54,358 bases of DNA from positions 1 to 54,358 of IMG/VR virus record IMGVR_UViG_3300023174_000214. One strand, written 5' to 3'. The position numbers and the translations under genes were made by a program. This document shows positions 1,842 through 18,429 of the stretch, in pieces. The notes beneath the pieces are model-generated. The model saw nothing but the letters and a program-made list of their open reading frames with translations. It ran no database searches and had not been told where the DNA came from. How positions within the stretch are numbered: position 1 is the first letter of the stretch; each line of letters opens with the position of its first letter. This stretch comes from a virus.

Positions 1842-2441
1842 ATGAAAAATTACACTGTAGATTGGTTTAGCGGAAATATTCCTAATTGGGATGTTATATT
1901 TCAACATTATTCATTTATAGGAAAAGAAAATTTAAAATTTTTAGAAATTGGTTGTTTTGAAGGTAGAGCTACTAATTATCTATTGGAAAATGTATTAATT
2001 CATGAAACAAGTCAAATGCATGTAATAGATACATTTGAAGGATCTAGAGAAGAAGCTGGTATGAATTGGGACGAAAATTATGATTTCAATGCATTATATA
2101 ATACTTTTATAGATAATATTAGCGAATATAAAAATAAAGTAATAGTACATAGAGGATTATCAGGAGATATTCTTAAAAAAGATTTTGAGAAAAATACATT
2201 TGATTTTATATATGTAGATGGATCTCATACTGCATATGATGTTTTACAAGATGCTATATTATGTCACTCTCTTTTAAAATCTGGAGGCATAATGATATTC
2301 GATGATTTTGGATGGAAAGATCCAAATAATCTTCATCCAACCAATAGCCCAGAATTAGGAGTAAATTGTTTTATGGTAACTCATGAAACTCAATATGAAT
2401 GCATAATGAAAGGTTATCAAGTTGGTTTAATAAAAAAATAA
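1842..2441 (+). CDS. Class I SAM-dependent methyltransferase
   Basis: 199 residues with the motif I LEIGCFEGRA (34-43), an acidic strand end at VIDTFEGS (about 61-68) and FDFIYVDGSHTAYD (about 120-133), typical of the Methyltransf_24 group that often sits in glycan clusters. It lacks a membrane segment and should be cytoplasmic. It opens the sugar locus, 5 nt after the ribbon-helix-helix gene, so a sugar or glycolipid methyl acceptor is likely, though a protein or small-molecule substrate is possible. Confidence 0.85.
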   Translation: MKNYTVDWFSGNIPNWDVIFQHYSFIGKENLKFLEIGCFEGRATNYLLENVLIHETSQMHVIDTFEGSREEAGMNWDENYDFNALYNTFIDNISEYKNKVIVHRGLSGDILKKDFEKNTFDFIYVDGSHTAYDVLQDAILCHSLLKSGGIMIFDDFGWKDPNNLHPTNSPELGVNCFMVTHETQYECIMKGYQVGLIKK

Positions 2442-2453
2442 TAATAACAATAT

Positions 2454-3917
2454 ATGAATTTTACAGGACCGTTAATGAAGAGTGGATATATTCCACAAAA
2501 AGACAGAAAAAAAGTATTACTTCTGTGTGACGATATTCGTATGACATCTGGCATTTCTACAATGGCTAGAGAAATAGTTGTCGGTACTTCTCACAGATAC
2601 AATTGGGTCAATGTAGGTGGTGCTATAAATCACCCCGAACAAGGCAAAAGATTAGACATTTGCGCAGATACAAACGCGATAAATGGTATAGATGACTCCT
2701 CAGTGTTTATATATCCAATAGCAGGATACGGATCTCCTGAATTGATTAGAACTCTGATCGATGCAGAAAAACCAGACGCTATAATGTTCTTCACTGATCC
2801 GAGATATTGGATCTGGTTATTTCAAATGGAAAACGAAATTAGAAGAAACATTCCAATGGTGTATCTAAACATATGGGATGATTTACCTGCGCCATTATAT
2901 AATAAAGCCTACTACGAATCTTGTGATGCACTTATGGCTATTTCAAAACAAACTGAAAATATTAACAGGATGGTTTTGGGAGAGAAAGCAAATGATAAGA
3001 TAATAAAGTATGTGCCTCACGGAATCAACGAAAAAATGTTTTATCCAATTAATGAGTATATGATTGAGGACACAGAGAAACTCAATCAAAAGCGCAAAGA
3101 GCTATTTGGAGAAGATCAACCAGAATTCGTAGTATTCTATAATGCTAGAAATATCAGACGCAAATCTACGTCGGATTTAGTTGCAGCGTATGCTCAATTT
3201 TGTGATAAGATAGGAAAAGACAAAGCCAAAAAGTGTAGATTACTTTTACACACAGACAAAGCAGATGATAATGGCACAGATTTGCCAGCAGTAATAAATT
3301 TATTGTGTGATCCAGAATATCAAAAAGTTACATTTACACCTGGTAGAACCTCTACATTCGATGTTAATTTGTACTATAATCTATCAGATGTGACTGCGTT
3401 GGTATCTTCTAATGAAGGATGGGGATTGTCTTTAACAGAATCGATGATGTGTGGAAAGATGATTATTGCTACTGTAACAGGTGGAATGCAAGATCAAATG
3501 AGATTTGAGAATGAGAATGGCGAGTGGTTGAATTTTGATGAAAATTTCTGCTCTAATCACTTTGGAACGTATAAAAAACATGGAGATTGGGCAATACCAG
3601 TATTTCCTTCAAATAGCAGTTTAGTCGGATCTATACCTACACCATATATCTGGGACGATAGAGCAGATTTTAGAGATATTGCTTCTGCTATACAACAAGT
3701 CTATGAACTTCCAACAACAGAAAGAGAAAAGCGAGGAATGAATGGAAGAGATTGGGTACAATCAGACGAATCTATGATGAGCGCAAGAAAGATGTGTGAA
3801 AATGTAATAAGCTGCATAGATGAAACTTTCAGTACATTCAAAAAGAGAAAGAAATATGATTTGATAAAAATAGAAAAATTACAAACAAAAAAATTAGTTC
3901 ACCCTCTTACATATTAA
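2454..3917 (+). CDS. GT-B glycosyltransferase (GT4-like)
   Basis: 487 residues. The C-terminal half carries VVFYNARNIRRKS (about 226-238) and SSNEGWGLSLTESMMCGK (about 318-335), the nucleotide-sugar binding signature with the acidic ExxxxxxxE-type pair of GT4 enzymes. It should transfer a hexose from an activated donor in the cytoplasm. The N-terminal part (KVLLLCDDIRMTSGISTM) fits the acceptor-binding lobe. The next gene starts after 1 nt and is a second, diverged GT-B enzyme, so the two may act successively. Confidence 0.9.
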   Translation: MNFTGPLMKSGYIPQKDRKKVLLLCDDIRMTSGISTMAREIVVGTSHRYNWVNVGGAINHPEQGKRLDICADTNAINGIDDSSVFIYPIAGYGSPELIRTLIDAEKPDAIMFFTDPRYWIWLFQMENEIRRNIPMVYLNIWDDLPAPLYNKAYYESCDALMAISKQTENINRMVLGEKANDKIIKYVPHGINEKMFYPINEYMIEDTEKLNQKRKELFGEDQPEFVVFYNARNIRRKSTSDLVAAYAQFCDKIGKDKAKKCRLLLHTDKADDNGTDLPAVINLLCDPEYQKVTFTPGRTSTFDVNLYYNLSDVTALVSSNEGWGLSLTESMMCGKMIIATVTGGMQDQMRFENENGEWLNFDENFCSNHFGTYKKHGDWAIPVFPSNSSLVGSIPTPYIWDDRADFRDIASAIQQVYELPTTEREKRGMNGRDWVQSDESMMSARKMCENVISCIDETFSTFKKRKKYDLIKIEKLQTKKLVHPLTY

Positions 3918-3918
3918 T

Positions 3919-5229
3919 ATGAATAAACAATATTGCGTAATAAGCGCACCAATAGATACATACAGCGGATACGGAGCAAGATGTAGAGATTTCGTTAAAG
4001 CTCTTTATGAATTAAAAAAAGACGAATGGAGAATTGAAATAATACCTCAAAGATGGGGAGTAACTCCTTGGAATTATATAAAAGATCACGAATCTGAATG
4101 GGGATGGATAAATCCTATGCTAAATAAGCAAGGTCAAATGACACAACAACCAGATGTTTGGATTCAAGTCACAGTGCCAAACGAATTTCAACCCATAGGA
4201 AAATATAATATTGGTGTGACAGCAGGAATAGAAACCACTTTGTGTGATCATAGTTGGATTGATGGATGTAATAGAATGAATGTAATTCTTACTTCATCAG
4301 AGCATGCAAAAAATACATTTAATTTTACTTCGTTCCAAGAAAAAGATCAGACTGGTAGAATAGTGAGAGATGTTAAATTACAAAAACCAGTAGAGATTCT
4401 TTTTGAAGGAGCAGATCTAAACAAGTATTTTTATTTGGATCCTAAAGAAATTAAAAAGACAGATCTAGTTAATAGTTTAGACGAAATTAAAGAAGCTTTT
4501 TGTTATTTGTTTGTAGGACACTGGCTCCAAGGAGAATTTGGAGAAGATAGAAAAAATGTTGGATTAACAATAAAAACATTTTTAGAAACATTTAAAGACA
4601 AGAAAAACAAACCAGCTTTGATACTAAAGTGCTCAGGCGCAGGAGCGAGTATTATGGATAGAGATCAGATGTTAGAGAAAATAGATGCCATACGTAATTC
4701 AGTTGATAGCAAAGACATACCTAATGTTTATTTGCTTCACGGAGAATTAGATGATGAGGATATGAATAATCTGTACAATCATCAAAAGGTCAAGGCTATG
4801 ATAAACCTAACCAAAGGTGAAGGATTCGGTAGACCTCTATTGGAATTCAGCTTAGTAAAAAAACCTATTATTGCTAGCAATTGGTCAGGTCATATAGATT
4901 TTTTATCAAAAGAATTTTGTTGTCTAGTTTCTGGAGAAGTAAAGCAAATCCATCCATCAGCAATAGTTCCAAATATTCTCATACCAGAATCAGGATGGTT
5001 CGCTCCAAATATTGCAGAAGCAAAACACTTTTTAAAAGACGTTTTTGATAATTACGATAAGTACACAGAAAACGCTAAGAGGCAATCATATAGATCTAAA
5101 ACTCAATATTCTTTCGATAAAATGAAAGAACTTCTAAGCGCCAACTTAGAAATTATCCCGAAAAAAGTAGAACTAAAATTACCTACATTAAAGAAAATTG
5201 AATTACCTAAACTTAAAAAAGCAGAATAA
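3919..5229 (+). CDS. GT-B glycosyltransferase (GT4-like), second of pair
   Basis: 436 residues with a SGYGARCRDFV N-terminal glycine-rich loop, a FVGHW domain hinge near the middle, and TKGEGFGRPLLEFS (about 297-310), the conserved donor-binding GEGFGxPxxE motif of GT4. The last 25 residues are a low-complexity Lys/Leu/Pro tail (KKVELKLPTLKKIELPKLKK) that may tether it to membrane or partner. The stop shares one base with the next ATG. Confidence 0.9.
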   Translation: MNKQYCVISAPIDTYSGYGARCRDFVKALYELKKDEWRIEIIPQRWGVTPWNYIKDHESEWGWINPMLNKQGQMTQQPDVWIQVTVPNEFQPIGKYNIGVTAGIETTLCDHSWIDGCNRMNVILTSSEHAKNTFNFTSFQEKDQTGRIVRDVKLQKPVEILFEGADLNKYFYLDPKEIKKTDLVNSLDEIKEAFCYLFVGHWLQGEFGEDRKNVGLTIKTFLETFKDKKNKPALILKCSGAGASIMDRDQMLEKIDAIRNSVDSKDIPNVYLLHGELDDEDMNNLYNHQKVKAMINLTKGEGFGRPLLEFSLVKKPIIASNWSGHIDFLSKEFCCLVSGEVKQIHPSAIVPNILIPESGWFAPNIAEAKHFLKDVFDNYDKYTENAKRQSYRSKTQYSFDKMKELLSANLEIIPKKVELKLPTLKKIELPKLKKAE

Positions 5230-5492
5230 TGACAGCTAATGAATTTATAATATGGTTAAAAGGATTTGCAGATGCTGCAAACCCGTATAATATAACTCCA
5301 AAACAGTGGGATGATATTTGTAGTCAACTTGCGAAAGTAAAAATAGATAACAATTCTATCGCCGGAACTAGATATAATATAGATAATAATCAAATTTGGG
5401 GAGTAGCTAATACAACTGGTCGTTTAGATGTATCTCATAAAACAGATAACCACGAAACAAAAACACTATTAACTGATAATACAATATTTTAA
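5229..5492 (+). CDS. Small phage protein (EFIIWLKGF type), 87 aa
   Basis: The N-terminus NEFIIWLKGFADAANPYNIT followed by PKQWDDICSQLAKV matches a small phage protein type I have seen in many unrelated phages, function unknown. The C-terminal half is polar and probably disordered. It overlaps the upstream glycosyltransferase by one base. That a phage house-keeping gene sits between glycosyltransferases shows the glycan genes are interleaved with phage genes rather than lying in a separate element. Confidence 0.8.
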   Translation: MTANEFIIWLKGFADAANPYNITPKQWDDICSQLAKVKIDNNSIAGTRYNIDNNQIWGVANTTGRLDVSHKTDNHETKTLLTDNTIF

Positions 5493-5495
5493 AAA

Positions 5496-5939
5496 ATGAT
5501 TGATAATTTAACAGATTGTCCGTGCTGCGATCAAAAAGCTTGTTGCTACGAAGTTAGAATAAATGAATCTAAGAAAATGTATTCATGTTATGGATGCGGA
5601 TTTTATAGTTCAGATCTTATGATTGATGGTGAATTTGATTCGGAAGAATTTGAATCAACTATGCCACAATTACATGCTGATATGAAAAGAATAGACTCTC
5701 AAAATAGAGTATGGTATCCACAATCAATTTCTATAGAGCATAAAGGCCATGTATTTGCGAACGGATCTAACAAAGATAATTGGAATTGGAGCGGAATAAA
5801 AACTATTCCTATATTAGAAGAAGAAAAACATTTACCTAGATTTCAAGGAAAAACTCATAAAACAGATTCTAAAAGTTTACAAAACTTTGAAAAAGATTTT
5901 ATTGAAGCATTAGACTACATAAACTTCTTTGAAATATGA
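5496..5939 (+). CDS. Zinc-ribbon protein, 147 aa
   Basis: CPCCDQKACCYEVR and YSCYGCGFYSSD give a CxxC...CxxC zinc ribbon in the first 45 residues, followed by an acidic segment and a tryptophan-rich region (NWNWSG). Similar ribbon proteins occur in T4-like genomes. The acidic tail ends in the next gene (ATGA overlap at 5936-5939). Function is unknown; nucleic-acid binding is the obvious possibility. Confidence 0.8.
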   Translation: MIDNLTDCPCCDQKACCYEVRINESKKMYSCYGCGFYSSDLMIDGEFDSEEFESTMPQLHADMKRIDSQNRVWYPQSISIEHKGHVFANGSNKDNWNWSGIKTIPILEEEKHLPRFQGKTHKTDSKSLQNFEKDFIEALDYINFFEI

Positions 5940-6556
5940 TATATATCTCCTATGCAATCCCAGTTTGCAATGAACACAAAGAGTTAGATGCATTATTAAC
6001 TATGCTTAAAAATGGTATAACTCCTCAAGACGAAATAGTAGTACAGTGCGATCAAGGAAATACAACACGAGAGGTTTACGAAGTCATAAATAAACATTCT
6101 GACCGTATTAAAGTAATCGAATTTCCTCTTAGAGGTGATTTCGCTTCATTTAAAAATAACCTAAAGAATCACTGTGTTGGAAGTTGGATATTTCAAATAG
6201 ACGCGGATGAACTATTACATGATAGTTTTTTATCTGCTCTTCCTGAAATCTTAAAAGCAAATCCCGAGGTGCATCTTTTTTGTGTACCGAGAATCAATAC
6301 TGTAGATGGACTTACACAAGATCATATTACCAAATGGGGATGGAATGTTAATGAAAAAGGTTGGGTAAATTTCCCTGACGTGCAAACTAGAATAATTCAA
6401 AATTCTCCAAAAATACAATGGGTTGGCAAAGTTCATGAGGTAATATTTGGACATAGATCCCAAGCTGTATTACCAATTGAAGAGGAATATTGTTTACTAC
6501 ACCATAAACATATACAGCGTCAAGAACATCAAAATACATTATATTCAATGATATAA
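5936..6556 (+). CDS. GT2-type glycosyltransferase, 206 aa
   Basis: GT-A fold signatures: ISYAIPVCNEHKELD at the start, an acidic EIVVQCDQGN strand end, and FQIDADELL (about 84-92) with the DxD metal and nucleotide-sugar motif. The C-terminus LLHHKHIQRQEHQN is a conserved tail of compact phage and LPS-type GT2 enzymes. It overlaps the upstream gene by 4 nt. Donor and acceptor are not predictable. Confidence 0.88.
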   Translation: MIYISYAIPVCNEHKELDALLTMLKNGITPQDEIVVQCDQGNTTREVYEVINKHSDRIKVIEFPLRGDFASFKNNLKNHCVGSWIFQIDADELLHDSFLSALPEILKANPEVHLFCVPRINTVDGLTQDHITKWGWNVNEKGWVNFPDVQTRIIQNSPKIQWVGKVHEVIFGHRSQAVLPIEEEYCLLHHKHIQRQEHQNTLYSMI

Positions 6557-6571
6557 ATAAAACACAAAGTT

Positions 6572-7885
6572 ATGCAAGAAATTTTAAAATTAGTTCAAGA
6601 GTTTATAGAAAAAAAACATTCAGAAAAATCTTGGGAAGCTGGTAAAGATTGGGTGCAATATGCTGGCCCTTATTTTGATTCACAAGAATATGTAGCCGCA
6701 GTAAAAACTTTATTAGGAGAATGGTTAGTTTTAGGCGCTGAAGCAATTAAGTTTGAAAGTAAATTCCCTAAATTATTTGGTAAAAAATACGGACTATTAA
6801 CTAATAGTGGATCAAGTGCTAATTTGCTAATGATGTTAGCTATGACATCAAAACGAGGATATAATTTTCCTAAAGGCACTAAAGTAATTACTCCTATAGC
6901 TGGATTTCCTACAACCATCAATCCAATTATTCAATTAGGTTTTACGCCTATATTTGTAGACATAGAATTAGAGACACTTAATTTAGACTTAGATCAAGTG
7001 GAACAAGCTTGTATAGATAATCCAGATGCAAAAATTATTACTTTTGCTCACGTACTAGGTAATCCACCTAATATGAATCGATTAATGGAGATAGTAGAAA
7101 AATACAAATTAATTCTACTAGAAGATTGCTGCGATGCATTAGGATCTACTTATGAAGGCAAACCTCTAGGATCATTTGGAGAAATAGCAAGTTGTTCATT
7201 TTATCCAGCTCATCACATGACTATGGGAGAAGGGGGTTTTGTTGCTATGAATAGTGAAAATTCAGAAAGAATTGTTCGTAGCTTTAGAGAATGGGGTCGA
7301 GGATGCTATTGCGTAGGAAAACAAAATTTACTTGAAAATGGATCGTGTAAATGTAGATTTAATAATTGGTTACCTGCATTGCCAAATGATGTTTTTGATC
7401 ACAAATATGTTTACGAAGAAATAGGCTATAATTTAAAACCAATTGAACTACAAGCTTCGATTGGATTAGTTCAAATGACTAAATTAGAAGAGATAGGAAT
7501 TAAACGTAGAGAAAATTATAAAAACTTATTTGCTGCTTTTAACAAGTATAAAGAGTATTTTCATTTACATGAAGCACAATCTGGCGCAGATGTAGATTGG
7601 TTCGCATTTCCGATTACAGTTAAAGACGACGCTCCATTTAAACGTTCTGACATTTGTCAATTTTTTGAATCGAATAAAATACAAACACGTCCGTATTTCG
7701 CTGGAAATATTATGTTACAACCTGCATATACTCACTTGATGGATTCCAAAGAGGTGATAGAAAAATATCCTGTTGCTAGAAAAGTTACAACAGATACATT
7801 TTTTCTTGGAACATCTCCAGTCATAAACAAAGAAAAAACAGATTACATAGAATCAATACTCGATAAATTTGCAGCATCATTATGA
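6572..7885 (+). CDS. rfbH: RfbH-type CDP-6-deoxy-4-hexulose 3-dehydrase (E1)
   Basis: 437-residue DegT/DnrJ/EryC1/StrS-fold enzyme. Instead of the PLP-binding lysine it has YPAHHMTMGEGG (211-222), the His substitution that defines the PMP-dependent 3-dehydrase E1. Cys187-X57-Cys245-X1-Cys247 exactly matches the known spacing of the E1 2Fe-2S ligands; the fourth ligand would be Cys259 or Cys261, after a loop about four to six residues longer than usual. The reaction removes the C3 hydroxyl of a CDP-4-keto-6-deoxyhexose, committing to 3,6-dideoxy sugars. No reductase E3 gene is visible here. The next gene overlaps by 4 nt. Confidence 0.93.
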   Translation: MQEILKLVQEFIEKKHSEKSWEAGKDWVQYAGPYFDSQEYVAAVKTLLGEWLVLGAEAIKFESKFPKLFGKKYGLLTNSGSSANLLMMLAMTSKRGYNFPKGTKVITPIAGFPTTINPIIQLGFTPIFVDIELETLNLDLDQVEQACIDNPDAKIITFAHVLGNPPNMNRLMEIVEKYKLILLEDCCDALGSTYEGKPLGSFGEIASCSFYPAHHMTMGEGGFVAMNSENSERIVRSFREWGRGCYCVGKQNLLENGSCKCRFNNWLPALPNDVFDHKYVYEEIGYNLKPIELQASIGLVQMTKLEEIGIKRRENYKNLFAAFNKYKEYFHLHEAQSGADVDWFAFPITVKDDAPFKRSDICQFFESNKIQTRPYFAGNIMLQPAYTHLMDSKEVIEKYPVARKVTTDTFFLGTSPVINKEKTDYIESILDKFAASL

Positions 7886-8865
7886 GAATAGCTTTTTTAA
7901 CAGAAATGGGATTTTATGGAAAAATTCCAAATGATCATCCAAACATGAGAACTGAATTTGCTTGGATGAATGCATTAAATGCAGATCATCATCCTATTTC
8001 AACATATATAAATGTTCAAGATTATGATCATGTATTTCTTATATTTCCTAAAGGAGAAGTTTATCTGAATGCAATAGGTAGTAAATTGTCAGATAAAATA
8101 AACCCAGTTAGTACACTATTACAATCTAATTTCTATCAATTCCTAAAAGATAAGAATAAAAGATTACATTTTGTTCAAGAAGGCCCGCATTGGTTATATA
8201 ATGATTACGAAATTATAGATCAAATAAACTATTATAATTTAATAAGTGAATGCGATTCTATATTTTGTCACAATCAAGAAGATAGAAAATATTATACGGG
8301 AATATTCCCTGATAAGCCTGTTCATGTTTTGCCTACTCTGATGATAGAAACTCTAATAAAAGATATACAGCCTAGTAAAACAGATCTGGCAATCATTGGA
8401 GGTAATTTTTCTAGATGGTATGGAGGATTCGAAAGTTATACTGTAGCTCAAGAATTTCAAGTGCCTATTTGGGCACAAGATTCACATTCTAAAAGAGAAT
8501 ATGAAGATCAACTAGAAAATATAAATCATTTCCCCAGAATGATATGGAATGAATGGATGCAACAACTTTCAAAGTTTAAATACGCAGTGCATCTAATGCC
8601 AACAGTCGCAGCAGGAACATTTAGTTTAAATTGCGCATATTTTGGAATACCATGCATAGGAAATAAAAAAGTGGATACTCAATCTATGTGCCATCCATTA
8701 CTATCTGTGGATGTAGAAGATATTTCTTCAGCAAGAAGTTTAGCAAAAAGATTGAAAGAGGATGAAGATTTCTATAAGATGTGCAGTAAATTAGCTAAAG
8801 ATCAATATAAATTCCATTACAATAAAGATAATTGGTTATATTATATGAATAAAATATTAAATTGA
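7882..8865 (+). CDS. Glycosyltransferase-like protein (GT-B half), 327 aa
   Basis: Begins MRIAFLTEMGFYGKIPNDHPN like GT-B enzymes, with ECDSIFCHNQEDRKYY (end of the acceptor lobe), IIGGNFSRWYGG and a C-terminal HLMPTVAAGTFSLNCAYFGIPCIG that occupies the place of the GT4 donor-binding helix. The acidic pair of GT4 is not obvious, so it is a diverged family. It overlaps RfbH by 4 nt, suggesting it uses or delivers the dideoxy sugar. Confidence 0.78.
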   Translation: MRIAFLTEMGFYGKIPNDHPNMRTEFAWMNALNADHHPISTYINVQDYDHVFLIFPKGEVYLNAIGSKLSDKINPVSTLLQSNFYQFLKDKNKRLHFVQEGPHWLYNDYEIIDQINYYNLISECDSIFCHNQEDRKYYTGIFPDKPVHVLPTLMIETLIKDIQPSKTDLAIIGGNFSRWYGGFESYTVAQEFQVPIWAQDSHSKREYEDQLENINHFPRMIWNEWMQQLSKFKYAVHLMPTVAAGTFSLNCAYFGIPCIGNKKVDTQSMCHPLLSVDVEDISSARSLAKRLKEDEDFYKMCSKLAKDQYKFHYNKDNWLYYMNKILN

Positions 8866-8869
8866 TACC

Positions 8870-10507
8870 ATGAAACAAAATAAATTTAGAATATTAATAG
8901 CTTCATATAACAATGAAGACTGGGTAGAATATAACATAGCGAGTGTATTAAATCAAACATATGAAAATTATCACGTCACATACATAGATGATTTTTCTCA
9001 AGATAATACATTTGAAAAAGTTAAAGCTTTAGTTGGAAATAGTAGTAAATTCACGCTAATAAAAAACGAAAGTAATTTAGGTGGATCTTATAATCACATT
9101 AGATTCTTTAATTCATTTGATGATGATGATGTTATTGTTCTATTAGACGGAGACGATTGGTTTTTTGATGATCACGTTTTAGAGAATCTTAATAATGCTT
9201 ATAATGAAAAAGATTTGTGGATGACGTACGGAAAATTTTACGTTTACAATGGAACAGAGCATGTTAGCGAGGCAGATCCACAAAATTCCCCATATCCAGA
9301 ATTTATACATAAACATAAACTATATAGAAAGGATATTTGGAGAGCATCTCATTTAAGAACATACAAATCTTTCTTGATTAAAAAAGTAGATCAAGATGAT
9401 TATATTTCAAAAATAAATGGGAAGTTGTTTTGGCATGCAGCAGACTTATCGCTAGCTTTTCCATGTTTAGAGATGTGCCCGCAAGAAAAAATAGGTGTTG
9501 TAGATTTTCCTACATATATATATAATGCTTCTCCAAAATCTCAAGAAAGAACAAAACAAAGAGAAATTTCTGATAATAATAAATACGAAATAGAAATAAG
9601 AAATAAAAAAAGATATAAAGAAGGTCTTTCTGGAGAAAAGCTACCAAATATAAATGTTATAGGGGATTTTAGAGAGAGAAATAGCATAGCAAAAAGTTGT
9701 TCATATGTGTATAATGCACCAGACTATATTGATTACGAAGCTACAATAATTCAAGACATGGATTGCATAAAATACATAAATCGAGAATTCAATATAACCA
9801 AAGGTAAAATTATAGCCGATATTCATGAACCTCCTCATCTTTTTGAGCAGAAACAAGTATATGATAAAGTTTATGAAAATGCTCATATGTTCGATTTAAT
9901 ACTCACATATGATAATAAATTATTACAACTTTCTAATGCTAAATTTAGAAACGGAGGGGGAGAATGCGTTCTCAATAAAAATGTTCATTCTTTAGAATAT
10001 CCGAATATAGCAAATGAAAATTTATATAATATATATGCCAAAAAAGATTTGATCTCTATAATAACGTCCAATAAAACATTTACAGAAGGTCATAGATTTA
10101 GAGTTAAATGCGTTAATCATTTAATCGCTCAAAATAGTAAAATAGATTTATTTGGAGTAGGATATAAAGAAATTAAGGGTAAAATAAATGCATTGGCTAG
10201 TTACTGCTTTTCAGTAGCTATGGAAAACGGAATACATAAAAATTATTTTACAGAAAAAATACTTGACTGTTTTTTAACTGGCACAATACCCGTTTATAAG
10301 GGATGTGAAAATATATCTGAATTCTTTGACGAAAACGGTATAATAATTTTTGAAGACGAAAAAGATTTACAACAAATAATAGATTCATTATCTATAGATT
10401 TATACTATTCTAAGCTAGAGTATGTTAAAAAGAATTATGAACTCGCGCTAAAGTACAAGTATAATAACGAAGATTATTTTAATAAATACATAAAAGACAT
10501 CATTTAA
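8870..10507 (+). CDS. Fusion glycosyltransferase: GT2 domain plus GT10-like domain
   Basis: 545 residues. Residues 1 to about 235 are a GT2 enzyme (ILIASYNNEDWVEYNIASVL, YIDDFSQDNT, LLDGDDWFFDD near 92-102). After a linker, residues about 260-545 resemble GT10 alpha-1,3-fucosyltransferases: FDLILTYDNKLL, FRNGGGE and especially FSVAMENGIHKNYFTEKILD plus LTGTIPVYKGCENISEFF, the conserved donor-binding core of GT10. One chain could therefore add two successive sugars, one of them fucose-like. Ends in a 1-nt overlap with the next gene. Confidence 0.87.
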   Translation: MKQNKFRILIASYNNEDWVEYNIASVLNQTYENYHVTYIDDFSQDNTFEKVKALVGNSSKFTLIKNESNLGGSYNHIRFFNSFDDDDVIVLLDGDDWFFDDHVLENLNNAYNEKDLWMTYGKFYVYNGTEHVSEADPQNSPYPEFIHKHKLYRKDIWRASHLRTYKSFLIKKVDQDDYISKINGKLFWHAADLSLAFPCLEMCPQEKIGVVDFPTYIYNASPKSQERTKQREISDNNKYEIEIRNKKRYKEGLSGEKLPNINVIGDFRERNSIAKSCSYVYNAPDYIDYEATIIQDMDCIKYINREFNITKGKIIADIHEPPHLFEQKQVYDKVYENAHMFDLILTYDNKLLQLSNAKFRNGGGECVLNKNVHSLEYPNIANENLYNIYAKKDLISIITSNKTFTEGHRFRVKCVNHLIAQNSKIDLFGVGYKEIKGKINALASYCFSVAMENGIHKNYFTEKILDCFLTGTIPVYKGCENISEFFDENGIIIFEDEKDLQQIIDSLSIDLYYSKLEYVKKNYELALKYKYNNEDYFNKYIKDII

Positions 10508-11874
10508 TGAAAAAATTAAAACAAATAACTCTAGTCAATATAAATTGTATAGATCCAGAGATAAGTATAAAATCATTAGAATATTCTATGAGAGAAATAG
10601 AGTTCGCTAAAGTTGTACTTTTTTCAGATAAAAAACCGTTTAATATAAAAGATGATATTGAATTTATAAAAATTAATAAAATAAATTCATTAGATGATTA
10701 TAGTAGATTTTGCATAAATGAACTTCTAAAATATATAGAAACTGATTACGTAATAAATTGTCAAAATGATGGATTCATAATCAATCCCCATCTTTGGACA
10801 GAAGAATTCTTAAATTACGATTATATCGGTGCGCCTTGGGCTTCTAATAGTGAATGGGCGAAAAAAAATAGAGTGGGTAATGGAGGATTTTGTCTAAAGA
10901 GCAAAAAATTTCTGGAGTTGTGCACGCAAATACACTATATATCGGGTCATGATGATGTTATTGTAACAAATGATTATTACGATTTTTTTACTAGAAACGG
11001 TATAAAATACGCGCCAGTTGAAGTTGCAATGAAATTTTCTTTAGAGATGAAAATACCAGAATGCGATTATGACTTAAACAATTGTTTTGGGTTTCATGGA
11101 AAAGGCATAGCCTGGCATCATTTGGGAGAAGGTCAAATGTTTAAAGAAAAACTTGATATGATTAGAAACGTAGGATTAGTATTAGAGAATAATATGGAAG
11201 TTGAAGATATAAATTCTTTTTATAGAGACGAATTAATAAACTTACCCCATGAAGAATTGTATAATTTTTTAGATTCAAAAGTTGGAGTATCTGATACTGA
11301 ATACTTTGGAGCAAAATACAAAGGAAATCTTCAAATTCAACAAATTCCAGAAGAATATATACAACTTTTAAATTTCTTCAAATCAAATACAATAGATAGA
11401 TATCTAGAATTGGGTGTTGCTAACGGAGGAAGTTTTTTTATGAACTCTATTTTTCTACAGAATACAGCAAAGATAATTCATTGTGTAGATTGCTTAGCAT
11501 ATAAAGATGTTCCATGGGTAGGACAAACATCTCAAAAAATACAATCAAAGGTAGATAGATTGCAAGAGTACTTTCCTAATAAAAACGTCAAATTTTATAA
11601 TATGACTACTGACGACTTTTTTAAAATAAACTCTCAAGAATATGATTGTATATTCATAGATGCTGATCATGATTATGATGGAGTAATGAAAGATTACATA
11701 AATAGTTTGAAATTTATTAGAAAAGAGGGGTGGATTGTTTTCCATGATATAAGAAATTATAATACTGGAGTTAAAAAATGTTGGGAAGAAGTTAGTAAAA
11801 ATTACTCAATAAAATATGAATTTTGTCACCCAACAAGTCCTAATTGCGGAATAGGCATAATTAAAATAATATAA
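10507..11874 (+). CDS. DUF5672 glycosyltransferase-like domain fused to methyltransferase
   Basis: 455 residues. The N-terminal part (to about 235) has the DUF5672 layout: LVNINCIDPEISIKSLEYSM, CQNDGFIINPHLW, YDYIGAPW, GNGGFCLKSKKFLELC and a terminal FGFHGKGIAWHH. The C-terminal part is a class I methyltransferase: RYLELGVANGGSFFMNSIF (about 297-315), CVDCLAY and YDCIFIDADHDYDGVMKDY. The fusion probably transfers and then methylates a sugar residue. Both halves are inferred from motifs; acceptor unknown. Confidence 0.85.
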   Translation: MKKLKQITLVNINCIDPEISIKSLEYSMREIEFAKVVLFSDKKPFNIKDDIEFIKINKINSLDDYSRFCINELLKYIETDYVINCQNDGFIINPHLWTEEFLNYDYIGAPWASNSEWAKKNRVGNGGFCLKSKKFLELCTQIHYISGHDDVIVTNDYYDFFTRNGIKYAPVEVAMKFSLEMKIPECDYDLNNCFGFHGKGIAWHHLGEGQMFKEKLDMIRNVGLVLENNMEVEDINSFYRDELINLPHEELYNFLDSKVGVSDTEYFGAKYKGNLQIQQIPEEYIQLLNFFKSNTIDRYLELGVANGGSFFMNSIFLQNTAKIIHCVDCLAYKDVPWVGQTSQKIQSKVDRLQEYFPNKNVKFYNMTTDDFFKINSQEYDCIFIDADHDYDGVMKDYINSLKFIRKEGWIVFHDIRNYNTGVKKCWEEVSKNYSIKYEFCHPTSPNCGIGIIKII

Positions 11875-11877
11875 TAT

Positions 11878-12669
11878 ATGATTTACGATTGTTTTACTTT
11901 TTTTAATGAACATACAATTTTAGATATTAGATTAAATACTTTGTATGATCATGTTGATAAATTTATCATTGTAGAGGCTACAAGAAGTCATCAAAATTTA
12001 GAAAAGAAATTATTTTTTAGCGAGAAAAAACATGAATATTCTAAATTTTTGGACAAAATTATACACGTAGTTCTAGATGAATATCCTGAACACACGTATT
12101 GGTCTTATGAAGAAAATCAAAGAGATGCTATAATTAAAGAATTAAGTAAAATAGCAACAGAAGATGATATAGTATTTATCTCAGATGTAGATGAAATATG
12201 GAATCCTGAGATGATTGATCTTAATAATGTAGAATCTGATAAAATATATAAGTGGCCAAGTTATGTTTGTTTTAGATACTTTAATTTAATGGCGCAAAAA
12301 GAATTATGGTATCAACCTCTCTATTGTAAATTTTCAATATTAGATAAAATGTGTAATAAAGAAAAATTAAAATTTTCATACGATGTTTTTAGAAATCGAG
12401 GCAATAAAATAGACAAAAATAGTTATATAGAATTAAATACAATATCGGGATGGCATTTATCTTATACAGAAGATATTGAAAATAAACTTCAAAATTTCTT
12501 ACACTCTGAATATAGAAATATGTCGAATGAGTATTTCCAAAAATCAATAAAATCAGGAGTCAATCCATTTTCTGGAAATGAAGTTTTTTTAATAGATAAT
12601 ATTCAAGATCATCTACCAGAATATGTTAAAAACAATATTGATAAATTTTCAAATTATATTCTCATTTAA
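11878..12669 (+). CDS. GT17-type glycosyltransferase
   Basis: 263 residues. MIYDCFTFFNEHTILDIRLN, FIIVEATRSHQN, YWSYEENQRDAI, and DIVFISDVDEIWNPE with a DxDE metal motif are the hallmarks of GT17 (GnT-III like N-acetylglucosaminyltransferases). The later GWHLSY segment is also typical. Bacterial and phage homologues usually act on surface glycans. It starts 3 nt after the preceding stop and shares one base with the next start. Confidence 0.88.
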   Translation: MIYDCFTFFNEHTILDIRLNTLYDHVDKFIIVEATRSHQNLEKKLFFSEKKHEYSKFLDKIIHVVLDEYPEHTYWSYEENQRDAIIKELSKIATEDDIVFISDVDEIWNPEMIDLNNVESDKIYKWPSYVCFRYFNLMAQKELWYQPLYCKFSILDKMCNKEKLKFSYDVFRNRGNKIDKNSYIELNTISGWHLSYTEDIENKLQNFLHSEYRNMSNEYFQKSIKSGVNPFSGNEVFLIDNIQDHLPEYVKNNIDKFSNYILI

Positions 12670-13442
12670 TGATTAAAGTAAATTTTATAGGGAGATTAGG
12701 AAATAATATGATTCAGTATTCGATAGCAAAGTTTATATCTGATATAAAAAAACAAAAATTATGTTATTCTATTACGGGGAATACTAATTGTGATTTAATG
12801 TTTAATATATTTCCAAAAACGCAAATACAAAATAATGAATCTTTTACAAATAATAATACAAAAATTTTTGGATATGATAGTACGGATAATCAAATTCAGA
12901 ATTTTAATATGCAAGATTTATTAGATCATGATGGAGATATATTATTAAATGGATTTTTTCAAAAAAAAGAATTTTTATTTGATAATTTTAACATTATTAA
13001 AAATTATTTTCAATACGATTTCCAATCATTAAAAGACTCAAGTCAATATGATGTTGTTATTCATCTAAGATTAGGGGATTATATCCAATTAAATCATTTC
13101 ATACATCCAGATAAAATATATAATTTATATAAGAATTTAGGATTTTCAAATGCGTTAATTCTATCTGATGATCCAAATCACTTTTTTCTTTCGAAATTTA
13201 AAAGTGATCATACATGTACAATCCAAAACAATTCTGCAATACAAGATTTACATTATATGATAACATCAAAAAACATAATAATAAGTCAATCTACATTTAG
13301 TTGGTGGGGATCTTATTTAGGGAATTTAAAAAATATATATGTACCATATGATGATAATCAATATCTATGGCCATATGAACCAAAAAATGATGATATAGAT
13401 TTAATACCGAATAAAAAAAACTATCACAAAATAAAATTATAA
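12669..13442 (+). CDS. GT11-type alpha-1,2-fucosyltransferase-like enzyme
   Basis: 257 residues. The opening KVNFIGRLGNNMIQYSIAK is the conserved N-terminal RLGNxxFQY-like motif of GT11, HLRLGDY (132-138) is the GDP-fucose binding HxRxGDY motif, and IISQSTFSWWGSYL is the C-terminal STFSWW signature. It should add fucose or a similar 6-deoxy sugar. The DNA here is among the most AT-rich of the locus. Confidence 0.9.
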   Translation: MIKVNFIGRLGNNMIQYSIAKFISDIKKQKLCYSITGNTNCDLMFNIFPKTQIQNNESFTNNNTKIFGYDSTDNQIQNFNMQDLLDHDGDILLNGFFQKKEFLFDNFNIIKNYFQYDFQSLKDSSQYDVVIHLRLGDYIQLNHFIHPDKIYNLYKNLGFSNALILSDDPNHFFLSKFKSDHTCTIQNNSAIQDLHYMITSKNIIISQSTFSWWGSYLGNLKNIYVPYDDNQYLWPYEPKNDDIDLIPNKKNYHKIKL

Positions 13443-13446
13443 AAAT

Positions 13447-13674
13447 ATGTTTATTAATTTAGATATACAAGGAGTTGAATTAAGAGCAATTAAAGGATTG
13501 GGTGAATATCTATCGCATATAGATTACATATATACAGAAGTGAATGAAGATTCAGTGTATGAAAATAATGATCTATTAAAAGACATAGATAAATATCTTT
13601 TATTAAAAGGTTTTTCAAGAAAAGAAACTTGCATAATAAATGGAAATTGGGGAGATGCTTTATACACTAGATAA
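13447..13674 (+). pseudogene. C-terminal remnant of an FkbM-family methyltransferase
   Basis: 75 residues: FINLDIQGVELRAIKGLGEY, then IDYIYTEVNEDSVYENND, LLLKGFSRKET and WGDALY, which correspond to the last third of FkbM methyltransferases (normally 200 residues or more). The SAM-binding motif I half is absent, and the upstream gene is a complete GT11 enzyme ending 4 nt before. It has an ATG and an open frame, so it may still be translated, but should not be catalytic by itself. Confidence 0.8.
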
Positions 13675-13690
13675 TTTTAAATAAAAAAAA

Positions 13691-14653
13691 ATGGAAAATA
13701 AAAAAGTAGTATACGTTACTGGTTGTTTTGGTTTTATTGGATCATATGTAACACAAGCCTGTTTAAATAAAGGGTGGTATGTAAAAGGTGTGGATAAATT
13801 AACTTACGCCGCAAATAAAAGTTTGTATAAAGAATTTATGGATCATCCGAACTTTTCTTTTGTTCACTGCGACATAAACGATTTAAAGTTTTTATATGAT
13901 TGTGATTACGTAATTAATACAGCTGCAGAAACTCACGTAGGGAATAGCATATCCAGCAGTTCAGAATTTGTCAAATCTAATATAGACGGAGTTCATAACT
14001 TATTAGAATTGATTAAAAATCACAGAGGAGAGAACGTAGGAAAACCAGTACTTATTCACTTTAGCACTGATGAAGTCTATGGAGATATAGAATCAGGAGC
14101 TCATAAAGAGTCAGATATGCTAAAGCCAAGTAATCCATATTCAGCGACAAAAGCTGCTGCAGATATGCTTGTAATGGCTTGGGGAAGAACGCATAAAGTT
14201 CCATATATGATTATAAGACCAACCAATAACTATGGTGTGGGACAATATGTGGAAAAGTTAATACCAAAAACAATAAAATACCTAAACCTCGGTCGTAAAA
14301 TTCCATTACACAATAATGGAGAACCGTACAGAAACTGGCTTCACGCTTACGATACAGCTAGAGCAGTTATATGCCTTATTGAAAAAGGTCAGATAGGAGA
14401 AATTTATAATGTTGCTGGTGGATTCGAACAGAAAAATATCGATACTGTAAAACAGATTATCGAATCATATAAAGATAAGGATTTAGAATCTTATACAAAT
14501 TATATAGATTTTTCTTGTGATCGTCCTGGACAAGATGTTAGATACGCTTTAAATGATTCTAAACTAAAATCTTTAGGATGGTCACCGAAAAAGAATTTTT
14601 CTTTAGAAATAAAAAATATTGTAAATTATTATAAGAAAAAATTTATTTGGTAA
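13691..14653 (+). CDS. RmlB-like NDP-glucose 4,6-dehydratase (extended SDR)
   Basis: 320 residues. GCFGFIGSYV (11-20) is the NAD-binding GxxGxxG loop; VDKLTYAANKS matches the RmlB-type DKLTYAGN region; FSTDEVYGD carries the Thr-Asp-Glu catalytic triplet; Y150SATK154 is the YxxxK pair; RPTNNYGVGQY and PLHNNGEPYRNWLH bind substrate. It should make an NDP-4-keto-6-deoxyhexose. The sequence looks dTDP/UDP-type rather than like CDP-glucose dehydratase RfbG, so its link to the RfbH step is uncertain. Confidence 0.9.
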   Translation: MENKKVVYVTGCFGFIGSYVTQACLNKGWYVKGVDKLTYAANKSLYKEFMDHPNFSFVHCDINDLKFLYDCDYVINTAAETHVGNSISSSSEFVKSNIDGVHNLLELIKNHRGENVGKPVLIHFSTDEVYGDIESGAHKESDMLKPSNPYSATKAAADMLVMAWGRTHKVPYMIIRPTNNYGVGQYVEKLIPKTIKYLNLGRKIPLHNNGEPYRNWLHAYDTARAVICLIEKGQIGEIYNVAGGFEQKNIDTVKQIIESYKDKDLESYTNYIDFSCDRPGQDVRYALNDSKLKSLGWSPKKNFSLEIKNIVNYYKKKFIW

Positions 14654-14654
14654 T

Positions 14655-16391
14655 ATGAGAGTTAGCGATTACGTAGCTAGATTCATTTCTAGTAAGAAAA
14701 TTAACCATGTGTTCACCGTTCCAGGTGGAGGATGCATTTTTTTAAATGATGCATTCGCAAGAGAGGAATCAATAGAAGTCGTTGCTAATCACCATGAACA
14801 AGCATGTGCTTTAGCAGCTGAAGGATACGCTAAATTTAATGGACATCTGGGTGTCTGTTTAGTTACCTCGGGCCCAGGAGGATCTAACGCATGGACAGGA
14901 ACACTATGCTCATATCAAGATAGCGTACCAGTAATGGTTATAAGTGGCAATGTTAATAGAGAATTAACTACAAATTTCACCAAGCTTAAACTAAGGCAAT
15001 TAGGAGATCAAGAATTCGATGTTGTTAATACCGTTAAGAATTTTACTAAGTATGCTGTTCAAGTAAATGATCCACTAGAAATTAGATACCATTTAGAAAA
15101 AGCATATCATCTAGCTACAACAGGTAGGAAAGGGCCCGTGTGGATTGATGTACCGTTAGATGTACAATCTACAGAGGTAGATCCCGATATACTTCAAGCA
15201 TATGAACCGAATAAAGAGAGTCTATTTGTATCAGAAAGAGATTTGTTAGAGTTATTAACAAAACTAAAAAATAGCAAAAAGCCACTGATAATAGCAGGGC
15301 ACGGTGTCAGATTATCTAACTCAGTTGATCTATTAAATGAAATTTTAGAAAAGCACAAAATACCAGCAATAACATCCTTTAATGGAAACGATGCTGTATC
15401 GAACGAATATGAATACTATTGTGGTAGATTTGGAACCCATGCACAGATAGCCGCAAATAAGATTCTACAAGAAGCTGATTTTGTTTTATCGCTTGGTAGT
15501 AGATTATACGTTAGACAAACAGGCTATAACTTTAAGTCATTCGCTAAGAATGCCTATAAAGCGTATGCTGATATAGATAAAGAAGAGTTATACAAACCAA
15601 CAATATTTCCAGATCTTAGACTACACTGCGATGTTAACACATTACTAACTTGCATAAAAGATTATATTAAGATTGGAGATGTGGATCACTGGAGACAGTA
15701 CTGCAAAGACGAAGTACTCTGCAATCCAACAGTGCTACCAAGACACCGAAGTAGCGAACCTACTAATATTTATGGAGTTGTTGATGTATTAAATCAATTT
15801 ATGAGATCAGATCTTCCAGTGATAACATCTGATGGATCTGCTAATATAGTTGGAATGCAAGTACTTAGATTAAAAAAGCATCAAAGATTATTTAGCAACA
15901 AATCAACAGCTCCAATGGGATATGGATTACCTGCAGCGATAGGAGCTTGCTTTGCAAATAATAAAAAGCAACTATTATGTTTAGAAGGTGATGGTAGTTT
16001 GCATATGAATATACACGAATTGCAAGTTATAGTTCAAAATCAATTACCTATAAAGTTAGTAGTATTTAATAACGATGGATACTTATCCATAAAAATAACT
16101 CAAAAAACTTTCTGCAACGGATTACTATCGGTATCAAATAGTTCTAGCGGATTAACATTACCCGACTATGAAAAGATATCGTTAGCCTATGGTATCAATT
16201 ATAAAAGGATTGATAACTTATTACAATTAAAAGATGAACTAACTAAATCATTCAGCACAAATCTACCGGAACTAATTGAAGTGTTTGTAGATCCTAATGG
16301 AGTACACGAACCTAAGGTATCAGCTATGTTAGGAGCAGATGGGAAATTTATACCTGGAAGTCTTGAAAATATAAAATGGATACAAGAATGA
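14655..16391 (+). CDS. Thiamine-diphosphate enzyme, acetolactate-synthase fold (YerE-like candidate)
   Basis: 578 residues, full length for the family. Glu48 in NHHEQACALAAEGYAK is the cofactor-activating glutamate; ILQEADFVLSLGSRL marks the central domain; GDGSLHMNIHELQ to VVFNNDGY (about 445-472) is the ThDP/Mg2+ motif. In Yersinia, YerE of this fold transfers an acetyl unit from pyruvate to a CDP-3,6-dideoxy-4-keto sugar made by RfbH, giving branched yersiniose. The neighbourhood (RfbH upstream, reductase overlapping downstream) fits. An ordinary acetolactate synthase role is less likely in this context. GC content is visibly higher than in flanking glycosyltransferase genes. Confidence 0.88.
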   Translation: MRVSDYVARFISSKKINHVFTVPGGGCIFLNDAFAREESIEVVANHHEQACALAAEGYAKFNGHLGVCLVTSGPGGSNAWTGTLCSYQDSVPVMVISGNVNRELTTNFTKLKLRQLGDQEFDVVNTVKNFTKYAVQVNDPLEIRYHLEKAYHLATTGRKGPVWIDVPLDVQSTEVDPDILQAYEPNKESLFVSERDLLELLTKLKNSKKPLIIAGHGVRLSNSVDLLNEILEKHKIPAITSFNGNDAVSNEYEYYCGRFGTHAQIAANKILQEADFVLSLGSRLYVRQTGYNFKSFAKNAYKAYADIDKEELYKPTIFPDLRLHCDVNTLLTCIKDYIKIGDVDHWRQYCKDEVLCNPTVLPRHRSSEPTNIYGVVDVLNQFMRSDLPVITSDGSANIVGMQVLRLKKHQRLFSNKSTAPMGYGLPAAIGACFANNKKQLLCLEGDGSLHMNIHELQVIVQNQLPIKLVVFNNDGYLSIKITQKTFCNGLLSVSNSSSGLTLPDYEKISLAYGINYKRIDNLLQLKDELTKSFSTNLPELIEVFVDPNGVHEPKVSAMLGADGKFIPGSLENIKWIQE

Positions 16392-17158
16392 ACATACTAA
16401 TAACAGGAGGAAACGGATATATAGCAAAATCACTATATTCATCATTAAGCAATAATTACAATATAATAAGTGTATCTAGAAAAGATTTTGATTTGACTGA
16501 TAGAAAAGATACAGACAATTTTTTTAGAGGCAAATTATTTGATGTCGTTATCCATTGCGCAGTTAAAGGTGGTAGCAGATTGAAACAAGAGAGTTGGAAA
16601 GACATGGATGATAATTTAAAAATGTATTATAATATAATAGGAAATAAAAGTAGTTTTAATAAACTAATTCATTTCGGATCAGGCGCAGAATTTAATGCAT
16701 CGAATACTCCATATGGATTCAGTAAAAAAGTTATAGCAAATTCCATTTCAGAACTAGAAGATTCTTATAATCTAAGAATATATGGGTTATTTGATGAGAA
16801 CGAATTAGATAGTAGATTTATAAAAGCAAATATAAAAAGATATATAAATAAACAACCAATTGAAATATATCAAGATAAATACATGAGTTTCTTCTATATG
16901 AAAGATCTTATAAAAGTTATAGAATATTACTTACTAAATAGTAATGCGCAGAAAGATCTCGATTGTTGTTATAGTCACATATACACATTAAGCGCAATCG
17001 CTGATATTATTAATTGTTTATCTGATTATAAAGTTGAAATCATAAAACAAAATGCGGATATAGGCAATGGATATTATGGAAATAATTTACAAAGACCTAA
17101 TATAGATTATTTAGGATTACAATATGGAATAAAAGAAGTTTATAAAAAATTAAAATGA
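16388..17158 (+). CDS. NAD(P)-dependent sugar reductase/epimerase (SDR)
   Basis: 256 residues from the ATG at 16388, which makes an ATGA overlap with the TPP enzyme; an in-frame ATG at 16376 is less likely. GGNGYIAKSL (7-16) is the Rossmann loop, VIHCAVKGGS follows, and YGFSK gives the catalytic YxxxK. It resembles short 4-keto-sugar reductases (RmlD/Fcl/YerF-like in role). After the TPP enzyme it could reduce the new acetyl or the keto group. Confidence 0.85.
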   Translation: MNILITGGNGYIAKSLYSSLSNNYNIISVSRKDFDLTDRKDTDNFFRGKLFDVVIHCAVKGGSRLKQESWKDMDDNLKMYYNIIGNKSSFNKLIHFGSGAEFNASNTPYGFSKKVIANSISELEDSYNLRIYGLFDENELDSRFIKANIKRYINKQPIEIYQDKYMSFFYMKDLIKVIEYYLLNSNAQKDLDCCYSHIYTLSAIADIINCLSDYKVEIIKQNADIGNGYYGNNLQRPNIDYLGLQYGIKEVYKKLK

Positions 17159-18429
17159 GGAATATAACAATTGCAACAAATCCTGGCGCGGATAGTTTAG
17201 AGTACATTAAACTCTTAATAGAATCATTAAAACAAAATCTAGATAACAAATATCATGAAATACTAATTTTTATAGATAAAGACACTGATGGAATTGTTGA
17301 CTATTTAAAATCAGAAAAAAATAATTTTCATGATTTAAAAATAATTACCCATTCAGTAAATCCCGTTATTAGTTATCAAAGAAATTCTAGTTTGATAGTA
17401 GATTTTGCAAAATATGACATAGTAAGTTATTTGCATAGCGATATGGTCATATCTAAAGGTTATGATACAGCTATAATTTCAGAATTAGAAGATAATATGA
17501 TATTGAGTTCTACAAGAATAGAACCTCCACTACATCCAGAATCTCCTATAACCTTTACTCAAGATTTTGGTCTAAATCCAGAAGATTTTAATTTTGAATC
17601 ATTTACAAAATATGCAGAGACTGTAAAATCAAATAAGAGTTTAAATTATTTTTTCGCACCATACACTTTTCACAAGGAAACATGGAATAAGTTAGGAGGA
17701 TATGATACTCTGTTTAGAAGATCTAGAGAAGATTCAGATTTTGTACAAAGATGTTTGCATGCAGGAATAAAATTAAAACAAACGTATGCAGCAAATGTAT
17801 ATCATTTTACTTGCGTTACTTCTAGAGGAAAAAATTGGTTTGATCAATCGAATCAAGAAGCACAAGACCGAGTTCAATTACAAAATTCTGCGGATCAAAT
17901 AGAGATTAGACGATTCTTTAAAAAATGGGGAAACTTTAATCATGGAGAAAATTTAATTAAGAAATATGATTGCGATTTAGTTATAAAAAAATCTCATAAT
18001 CAATTGAACTTAGCTTATCAATTAGAACCATTTTTTACAAGAGTTTTCGTAGAATCTCAAGATTGCATAGATCAATTACTTGAAGCACATAAGAATCAAC
18101 ACGAACCAGCAAATAGACTTTTAAATTTTACAGAACAAGATTGGCAAGAATCAAGTAAGTATTATAATCAAATAGACTATTCTAAAATTTATTTTGTTGG
18201 AGAACCTGAAAATTATAACGCTAAAATAGTTGTTGATTTGGATAGCACAGAATATAATTTTCTCACTCAAGAAACTCTATTAATTCTATCTCATTTAATT
18301 GAACAAACAGAACCTGGAGATTATCAATCTGGAAATTGTATATTTAGCTTAAAACAAAAAGTAGATATCACACCACCATTTAAAGTAGAAAATCCTCCAT
18401 TCGATATGACTTTATTAACCATAGAATAA
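17155..18429 (+). CDS. GT2-type glycosyltransferase, 424 aa
   Basis: ITIATNPGADSLEYIKLLIESL and ILIFIDKDTDG begin a GT-A domain; YLHSDMVISKGYD supplies the acidic DxD-like site and RRSREDSDFVQRCLHAG is the conserved ED motif near the active site. About 150 C-terminal residues after the GT domain have no recognised family. The gene overlaps the reductase by 4 nt and is the last glycan gene; a new promoter-like box follows. Confidence 0.87.
   Translation: MRNITIATNPGADSLEYIKLLIESLKQNLDNKYHEILIFIDKDTDGIVDYLKSEKNNFHDLKIITHSVNPVISYQRNSSLIVDFAKYDIVSYLHSDMVISKGYDTAIISELEDNMILSSTRIEPPLHPESPITFTQDFGLNPEDFNFESFTKYAETVKSNKSLNYFFAPYTFHKETWNKLGGYDTLFRRSREDSDFVQRCLHAGIKLKQTYAANVYHFTCVTSRGKNWFDQSNQEAQDRVQLQNSADQIEIRRFFKKWGNFNHGENLIKKYDCDLVIKKSHNQLNLAYQLEPFFTRVFVESQDCIDQLLEAHKNQHEPANRLLNFTEQDWQESSKYYNQIDYSKIYFVGEPENYNAKIVVDLDSTEYNFLTQETLLILSHLIEQTEPGDYQSGNCIFSLKQKVDITPPFKVENPPFDMTLLTIE

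Follow-up and report, generated by a model that had tools for sequence, protein, structure and literature searches.

A phage gene cluster predicted to make a C4-branched dideoxy sugar, with an exchangeable branch cassette among its relatives

Which sugar would a phage make with an RfbH-type 3-dehydratase, an RmlB-like dehydratase, a thiamine diphosphate (ThDP) enzyme and a short reductase, on which nucleotide would it be built, and where would it be attached? The question is raised by the IMG/VR virus record IMGVR_UViG_3300023174_000214, a linear fragment of 54,358 bp that was analysed at full length and is referred to as the window. It contains one glycan cluster (positions 1842–18429, all genes on the + strand) with glycosyltransferases (GTs) of the types GT1, GT2, GT2+GT10, GT17 and GT11, two methyltransferase-type proteins, RfbH, the RmlB-like dehydratase, the three-domain ThDP enzyme and a short protein of the short-chain dehydrogenase/reductase (SDR) family. 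A preliminary description of this DNA had proposed C3 deoxygenation, acetyl transfer to C4 and reduction, in this order, leading to a 3,6-dideoxy and perhaps yersiniose-like sugar. The four genes are real and lie where that description placed them, and the order of steps fits our results; it missed the cassette exchange and the donor-making genes of related phages reported below. Judging from the sequences, the likely product is a 3,6-dideoxyhexose branched at C4, which the glycosyltransferases of the phage itself would put to use.

Enzymes of the predicted pathway

The gene at 6572–7885 (+) encodes a true RfbH, a predicted pyridoxamine phosphate/[2Fe-2S] nucleoside diphosphate (NDP)-4-keto-6-deoxyglucose 3-dehydratase. 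The protein scores 462 bits with the NCBIfam RfbH equivalog NF011936 (cut-off 423), and its best PDB matches are the Yersinia E1 structures 3bcx and 3bb8 (E 1e-102 for 3bcx). His214 (SFYPAHH) stands in place of the pyridoxal phosphate (PLP) lysine, and the [2Fe-2S] motif reads Cys187-X57-Cys245-X1-Cys247-X11-Cys259, the fourth ligand following after X11 where Yersinia E1 has X7. The histidine and the first three cysteines had been read exactly in the preliminary description, which did not name Cys259; all five residues are kept in every phage RfbH aligned. By its NF011936 score and by these residues the protein does not group with the PLP/Lys aminotransferases. RfbH-like proteins with the active-site histidine and without the Fe-S cysteines were observed in some related loci (L002, at 6759–7901, L134, L145, L154, L165, L166, L184 and others). 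They are closer to E1 than to ColD, replace RfbH beside RmlB and the ThDP gene, and are perhaps an Fe-S-free variant of the 3-dehydratase.

The ThDP enzyme (14655–16391, +) possesses three Pfam ThDP domains, the catalytic Glu (HHEQ) and the canonical GDG...N motif. Against PDB it scores 355 bits with 8rph, which we take to be JanthE from Janthinobacterium, 234 bits with PpYerE (5ahk) and 204 bits with acetohydroxyacid synthase (AHAS) I. In a maximum-likelihood tree it groups with JanthE and RfbH-linked enzymes of bacteria; PpYerE joins next, AHAS stands apart (support 100/99), and a placement inside the anabolic AHAS group was rejected by the approximately unbiased (AU) test (p=1.45e-5). The comparison with YerE and acetolactate synthases suggested for this gene in the preliminary description thus came out nearer JanthE/YerE, firm clustering with AHAS was not seen, and the assignment as a YerE-type enzyme is borne out. 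In a larger tree the enzyme falls in a clade of 26 rows that are all viral; across that tree viral and bacterial entries are mixed, with at least eight forced label changes, so that YerE-like genes have passed between phages and bacteria on several occasions. The YerE-like group is the decarboxylase subclass known for adding acyl anions to ketones, and the substrate of YerE is CDP-3,6-dideoxy-4-keto-D-glucose (PMC12247030; CDP, cytidine diphosphate). The window enzyme belongs to this ketone-accepting family, nearer JanthE than YerE proper, and its use of a ketone is predicted on these grounds. In L028/L029 (12282–14043) the ThDP gene appears as two open reading frames (ORFs) in overlapping frames, be it a frameshift, a real split or an assembly error.

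The start of the SDR gene (16376–17158, +; PF01370, PF04321, GGNGYIA, YGFSK) overlaps the end of the ThDP gene by 16 bp, an overlap already noted before. An SDR gene follows the branch cassette in relatives too, and the protein, a short extended SDR, probably reduces the acyl branch ketone.

The nucleotide is addressed by the RmlB-like NDP-glucose 4,6-dehydratase (13691–14653, +), which is full length and carries TDE and YxxxK. Its best family is TIGR01181 (311 bits, under the cut-off of 365); with the CDP type TIGR02622 it scores 79 bits (cut-off 278). The catalytic triad [ST]DE-YxxxK characterises deoxythymidine diphosphate (dTDP)- and uridine diphosphate (UDP)-glucose 4,6-dehydratases, [ST]DK-YxxxK the CDP enzyme (PMC8987622). 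TDE and YxxxK were present in 99 of 99 phage RmlB-like proteins, and [ST]DK in the four bacterial RfbGs compared. Among the positions which we take to form the substrate pocket (Salmonella RmlB numbering), the window protein keeps N196, K206, L207, R231, N266 and R297 and has Y224 changed to His and H300 to Gln. Residue 224 is His in 99/99 and residue 300 Gln in 92/99 of the phage proteins, a signature differing from both Salmonella RmlB (Tyr, His) and bacterial RfbG.

In the window, itself a fragment, there was no NTP_transferase (RfbF) match, no CDP-glucose 4,6-dehydratase (RfbG) above cut-off and no NAD_binding_1 (E3) reductase, in agreement with the preliminary description; an E3-type NAD_binding_1 reductase was found in none of 22 phage records. 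Among 67 dereplicated viral loci with a ThDP enzyme, a His-type DegT protein occurs in 59, RmlB in 56, RfbG in one (L192) and RfbF in none, and RmlB overlaps the start codons of RfbH or of the ThDP gene in several phages. The 79 bacterial loci with JanthE-like enzymes contain RfbH in 35, RfbG in 15 and RfbF in six cases, and no RmlB-motif protein. A CDP route with phage-encoded RfbG or RfbF was discarded, as neither was found in the window or its relatives except for the RfbG of L192. SpnQ, an E1-like [2Fe-2S] 3-dehydratase, acts on a dTDP sugar with ordinary ferredoxin/flavodoxin reductases (PMC8987622), which fits the lack of an E3-type reductase in the 22 phage records. Since RfbF, RfbG and E3 are absent here and nearly always in relatives, the sugar is probably carried on dTDP; another nucleotide, used with the RmlB-like gene, had been the second option of the preliminary description and is now favoured (TDE in 99/99; RmlB in 56/67 against RfbG in 1/67 viral loci). 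A search for the phage RmlB clade in ~790 bacterial genomes of two phyla gave no match at the strict threshold of E<=1e-75, without a positive control. Some related phages encode a HAD_2 hydrolase-nucleotidyltransferase fusion of 451–452 aa (L002, 13402–14757; L004, 19591–20946; L040, at 12300), possibly a sugar-1-phosphate activating enzyme.

A recurrent viral module and its cassettes

The preliminary description had regarded the pathway as unusual phage cargo. This did not hold: a module of His-type 3-dehydratase, RmlB, branch cassette and short reductase was found in more than 100 related viral contigs. For an estimate made regardless of ThDP enzymes, viral loci were seeded with RfbH, leaving 30 after dereplication, the window included. 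RmlB is present in 25 of these, and in 21 of the 25 a ThDP enzyme follows within 3 kb downstream; of the four exceptions, two run out at or close to the edge of the locus, and a third carries E1 alpha/beta 5.7 kb further on. The ThDP enzyme in this slot is mostly YerE-like, in other loci an E1_dh alpha with a Transket_pyr beta subunit, and in L031 and L036 a split transketolase. Exactly these three ThDP superfamilies, YerE-like, alpha-keto-acid-dehydrogenase E1 alpha/beta and split transketolase, have been reported to accept ketones (PMC12247030).

Pairwise comparisons of closely related phages located the variable part. L005 and L007 share 86.5% DNA identity along the 9 kb that finish with the RmlB end, and 88% again from the SDR start; in between, L005 carries E1 alpha/beta and L007 genes for DJ-1, cupin, HAD and a YerE-like ThDP enzyme. 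The same pattern of exchange was seen between L005 and L009 (E1 for ThDP enzyme plus aldolase) and between L006 and L036 (ThDP enzyme for split transketolase), whose RfbH proteins are 98.6% identical. The breakpoints in these near-identical phages are thus the RmlB end and the reductase start. Between RmlB and SDR, the genes for the branch step form an exchangeable cassette, and the branch, not the core sugar, would be the variable part. This suggests that swaps of complete gene cassettes are a means by which phages vary their sugar coats.

YerE-like cassettes often hold enzymes that could supply alpha-keto acids or compounds leading to them: acetaldehyde dehydrogenase and 4-hydroxy-2-oxovalerate aldolase in L009, L016 and L027 (both above curated cut-offs in L009), PanB in L018 (above cut-off) and ten other loci, HpaI-like aldolases in L030, L034 and L200, and NeuB-like synthases or AroB-like proteins in many. 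In 59 complete RmlB-ThDP-SDR loci, these donor classes together with DJ-1, cupin and LdpA-like genes were counted 83 times inside the cassettes (150 kb) and not once outside (813 kb), the inside count being biased by the choice of classes after they had been seen in cassettes; for general glycan genes, a complete absence outside would be surprising. The E1 and transketolase cassettes checked contained no gene of the donor classes. JanthE is reported to accept 4-hydroxy-2-oxovalerate, and hydroxylated donors of this kind are preferred by ErwE (PMC12188165, PMC12247030). The ThDP enzymes of L009, L016 and L027, encoded near the dehydrogenase and aldolase genes, carry the rare CDG motif of JanthE. 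An LdpA-like Fe-S protein, which may carry electrons or take part in making the donor, is encoded within the HpaI-type cassettes (L034, 18836–19996; L030, 15478–16635; L200).

Proposed route and competing explanations

In the route that we propose, the RmlB-like enzyme would convert host dTDP-glucose to dTDP-4-keto-6-deoxyglucose, from which RfbH would remove the C3 hydroxyl with electrons from host ferredoxin or flavodoxin. The YerE/JanthE-like enzyme would then decarboxylate an alpha-keto acid, here host-derived and perhaps pyruvate, and add the acyl anion to the C4 ketone, yielding a tertiary alcohol with an acyl branch whose ketone the overlapping SDR would reduce. Related phages would vary this scheme by swapping the ThDP superfamily or by adding genes that possibly make a special donor. 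A specifically yersiniose-like product, as first suggested, is no longer favoured: the ThDP enzyme lies nearer to JanthE, and a variety of donors seems to be in use among related phages.

Several observations weigh against this route. The ThDP enzyme is just 34% identical to JanthE and 30% to PpYerE, and JanthE, the nearest characterised enzyme, is without an assigned physiological substrate. His224 and Gln300 may have shifted the base specificity of the phage RmlB-like proteins. The window has no donor-making gene; its cassette consists of the ThDP enzyme alone, so that the donor must come from the host. Finally, RfbH and RmlB are separated in the window by 5.8 kb and five genes.

This distance is what one would expect if RmlB, the ThDP enzyme and the SDR made a C4-branched 6-deoxy sugar without RfbH, which would instead serve another, 3,6-dideoxy residue in the glycan; some relatives likewise have RmlB adjoining the ThDP gene and RfbH several kb off. 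Against such a division stand the His-type 3-dehydratase in 59/67 viral ThDP loci, the overlap of RfbH and RmlB in L004, L006 and L036, and the His-bearing, Cys-less protein found directly before RmlB in L002, where RfbH is missing, and we regard it as improbable. Somewhat less improbable, though still unlikely, is the canonical CDP route, in which RfbF and RfbG of the host would provide RfbH with CDP-4-keto-6-deoxyglucose, leaving the RmlB-like gene to another sugar. The characterised E1 and YerE use CDP sugars (PMC8987622, PMC12247030), bacterial relatives of the ThDP enzyme sit with RfbF, RfbG and RfbH, and the viral locus L192 carries RfbG. However, this would require a host with both RfbF and RfbG, it is at odds with their scarcity in the viral loci (0/67 and 1/67), and it leaves aside RmlB as the near-constant viral companion whose gene overlaps neighbouring start codons. 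An origin of the ThDP gene as an auxiliary metabolic gene for amino acids, encoding acetolactate synthase or another such enzyme, is hardly credible: its top NCBIfam scores are indeed with AHAS models, all far under cut-off, but the AU test (p=1.45e-5) and the lead of JanthE over AHAS by 150 bits oppose it, no ilv genes adjoin, and the gene stands amid sugar genes in viruses and bacteria. The dTDP-linked, C4-branched 3,6-dideoxyhexose remains our preferred reading. Evenly balanced in our judgement is the wider proposal that aquatic T4-like phages use a dTDP branched-sugar pathway with a plug-in cassette (three ThDP superfamilies, with or without donor genes, at one exact site) and diversify the sugar branch on their virions as bacteria do with O-antigens.

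Glycan context and comparison with known systems

The cluster opens with a methyltransferase (1842–2441, PF13578), a GT1-type glycosyltransferase (2454–3917, PF00534), a GT1-like one kept upstream of RfbH in relatives (3919–5229, phrog_2170; PF00534 slightly under cut-off) and a GT2 conserved upstream of RfbH (5936–6556, PF00535). A protein kept in many relatives (7882–8865) overlaps the RfbH stop codon and gave no match in Pfam, NCBIfam and PHROG searches. It is followed by a GT2+GT10 fusion (8870–10507; PF00535, PF00852), a DUF5672-methyltransferase fusion (10507–11874; PF18922, PF13578), a GT17 (11878–12669, PF04724) and a GT11 (12669–13442, PF01531), and a GT2 (17155–18429, PF00535) closes the cluster; all are on the + strand. 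Directly before RmlB, a short ORF (13447–13674) resembles by eye the C-terminal end of an FkbM-type methyltransferase and is apparently a gene remnant.

By a simple hydropathy count, no protein of the window cluster has transmembrane-like segments, and polytopic ORFs are present in only 2 of 120 viral loci, compared with 41 of 80 bacterial ones. With membrane proteins so scarce, flippases and polymerases seem to be absent, which favours cytoplasmic glycosylation, for instance of virion proteins, over the making of an O-antigen. The probable acceptors are therefore phage proteins or some other cytoplasmic molecule, rather than a Wzx/Wzy O-antigen. A T4-type Gp23 capsid gene is present in 10 of 22 related records. 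L004 is the record whose RfbH comes closest (93%), and its capsid protein has its nearest counterpart in Flavobacterium phage immuto (60%); one window protein shares a short stretch with an immuto tail fibre. A host in Bacteroidota is a reasonable guess, no more. For cultured phages with a YerE-like enzyme, matches in the phage collection reached ~30% identity or less, and the named ones were AHAS genes in bacterial or contaminated records. In the cyanophages S-SM2 (L228, 8983–10191) and P-TIM68 (L227, 9049–10194), one longer protein has an N-terminal part ~41% identical to phage E1 alpha; this gene lies in a heptose-type sugar cluster without RfbH.

RfbH in phages is already known, rfbH being in a list of viral genes (PMC10653327), and 4-hydroxy-2-oxovalerate aldolase appears among the viral genes listed for groundwater (PMC13303688). 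Viral ThDP enzymes that accept ketones are only a matter of speculation in a 2025 review of this chemistry (PMC12247030), and our searches of the literature brought up no phage enzymes for branched sugars. As far as the literature searched shows, the phage YerE-like pathway, its consistent RmlB-type dehydratase and the exchange of three ThDP superfamilies, together with donor genes, at a single slot are new. They offer a genome-encoded library of matched donor/carboligase pairs for tertiary alcohols, suggest native donors for JanthE-like enzymes, e.g. 4-hydroxy-2-oxovalerate, and make the diversification of virion glycans by phages under selection testable.

With the yersiniose A pathway of Yersinia (RfbF, RfbG, RfbH, E3, YerE and a reductase) the phage shares RfbH-type C3 deoxygenation, ThDP-dependent acyl transfer to a C4 ketone and a reductase; it differs in the dTDP/UDP-type RmlB in place of RfbG, the lack of RfbF and E3, the exchangeable branch cassette and a ThDP enzyme only ~30% identical to PpYerE. 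JanthE (8rph) and its bacterial RfbH-linked relatives are the closest, JanthE sharing its CDG motif with L009, L016 and L027, whereas the window enzyme has the canonical GDG and 34% identity. The YerE-like ErwE (erwiniose), acting on a 4-keto-3,6-dideoxy sugar, and MMAR_2332 (caryophyllose) share a preference for hydroxylated alpha-keto acid donors (PMC12247030) and by description match the aldolase-bearing phage cassettes, unlike the window, which is without an aldolase. SpnQ of spinosyn biosynthesis, likened by description, resembles phage RfbH as an E1-like [2Fe-2S] 3-dehydratase of a dTDP sugar; its substrate, however, is of the 2,6-dideoxy type. AviB1/AviB2, kibdelomycin KbDH and aldgamycin alpha-KADH2 are branch-adding ThDP enzymes of the type seen in the phage E1 alpha/beta cassettes, and the split transketolases of miharamycin and amipurimycin correspond to the split-transketolase cassettes; these belong to actinobacterial antibiotic clusters and are not known to trade places with YerE-like enzymes within a single locus. 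Bacterial surface polysaccharides and antibiotics are the familiar setting of ThDP-made branched-chain sugars; here the three superfamilies occur as interchangeable parts of one phage locus.

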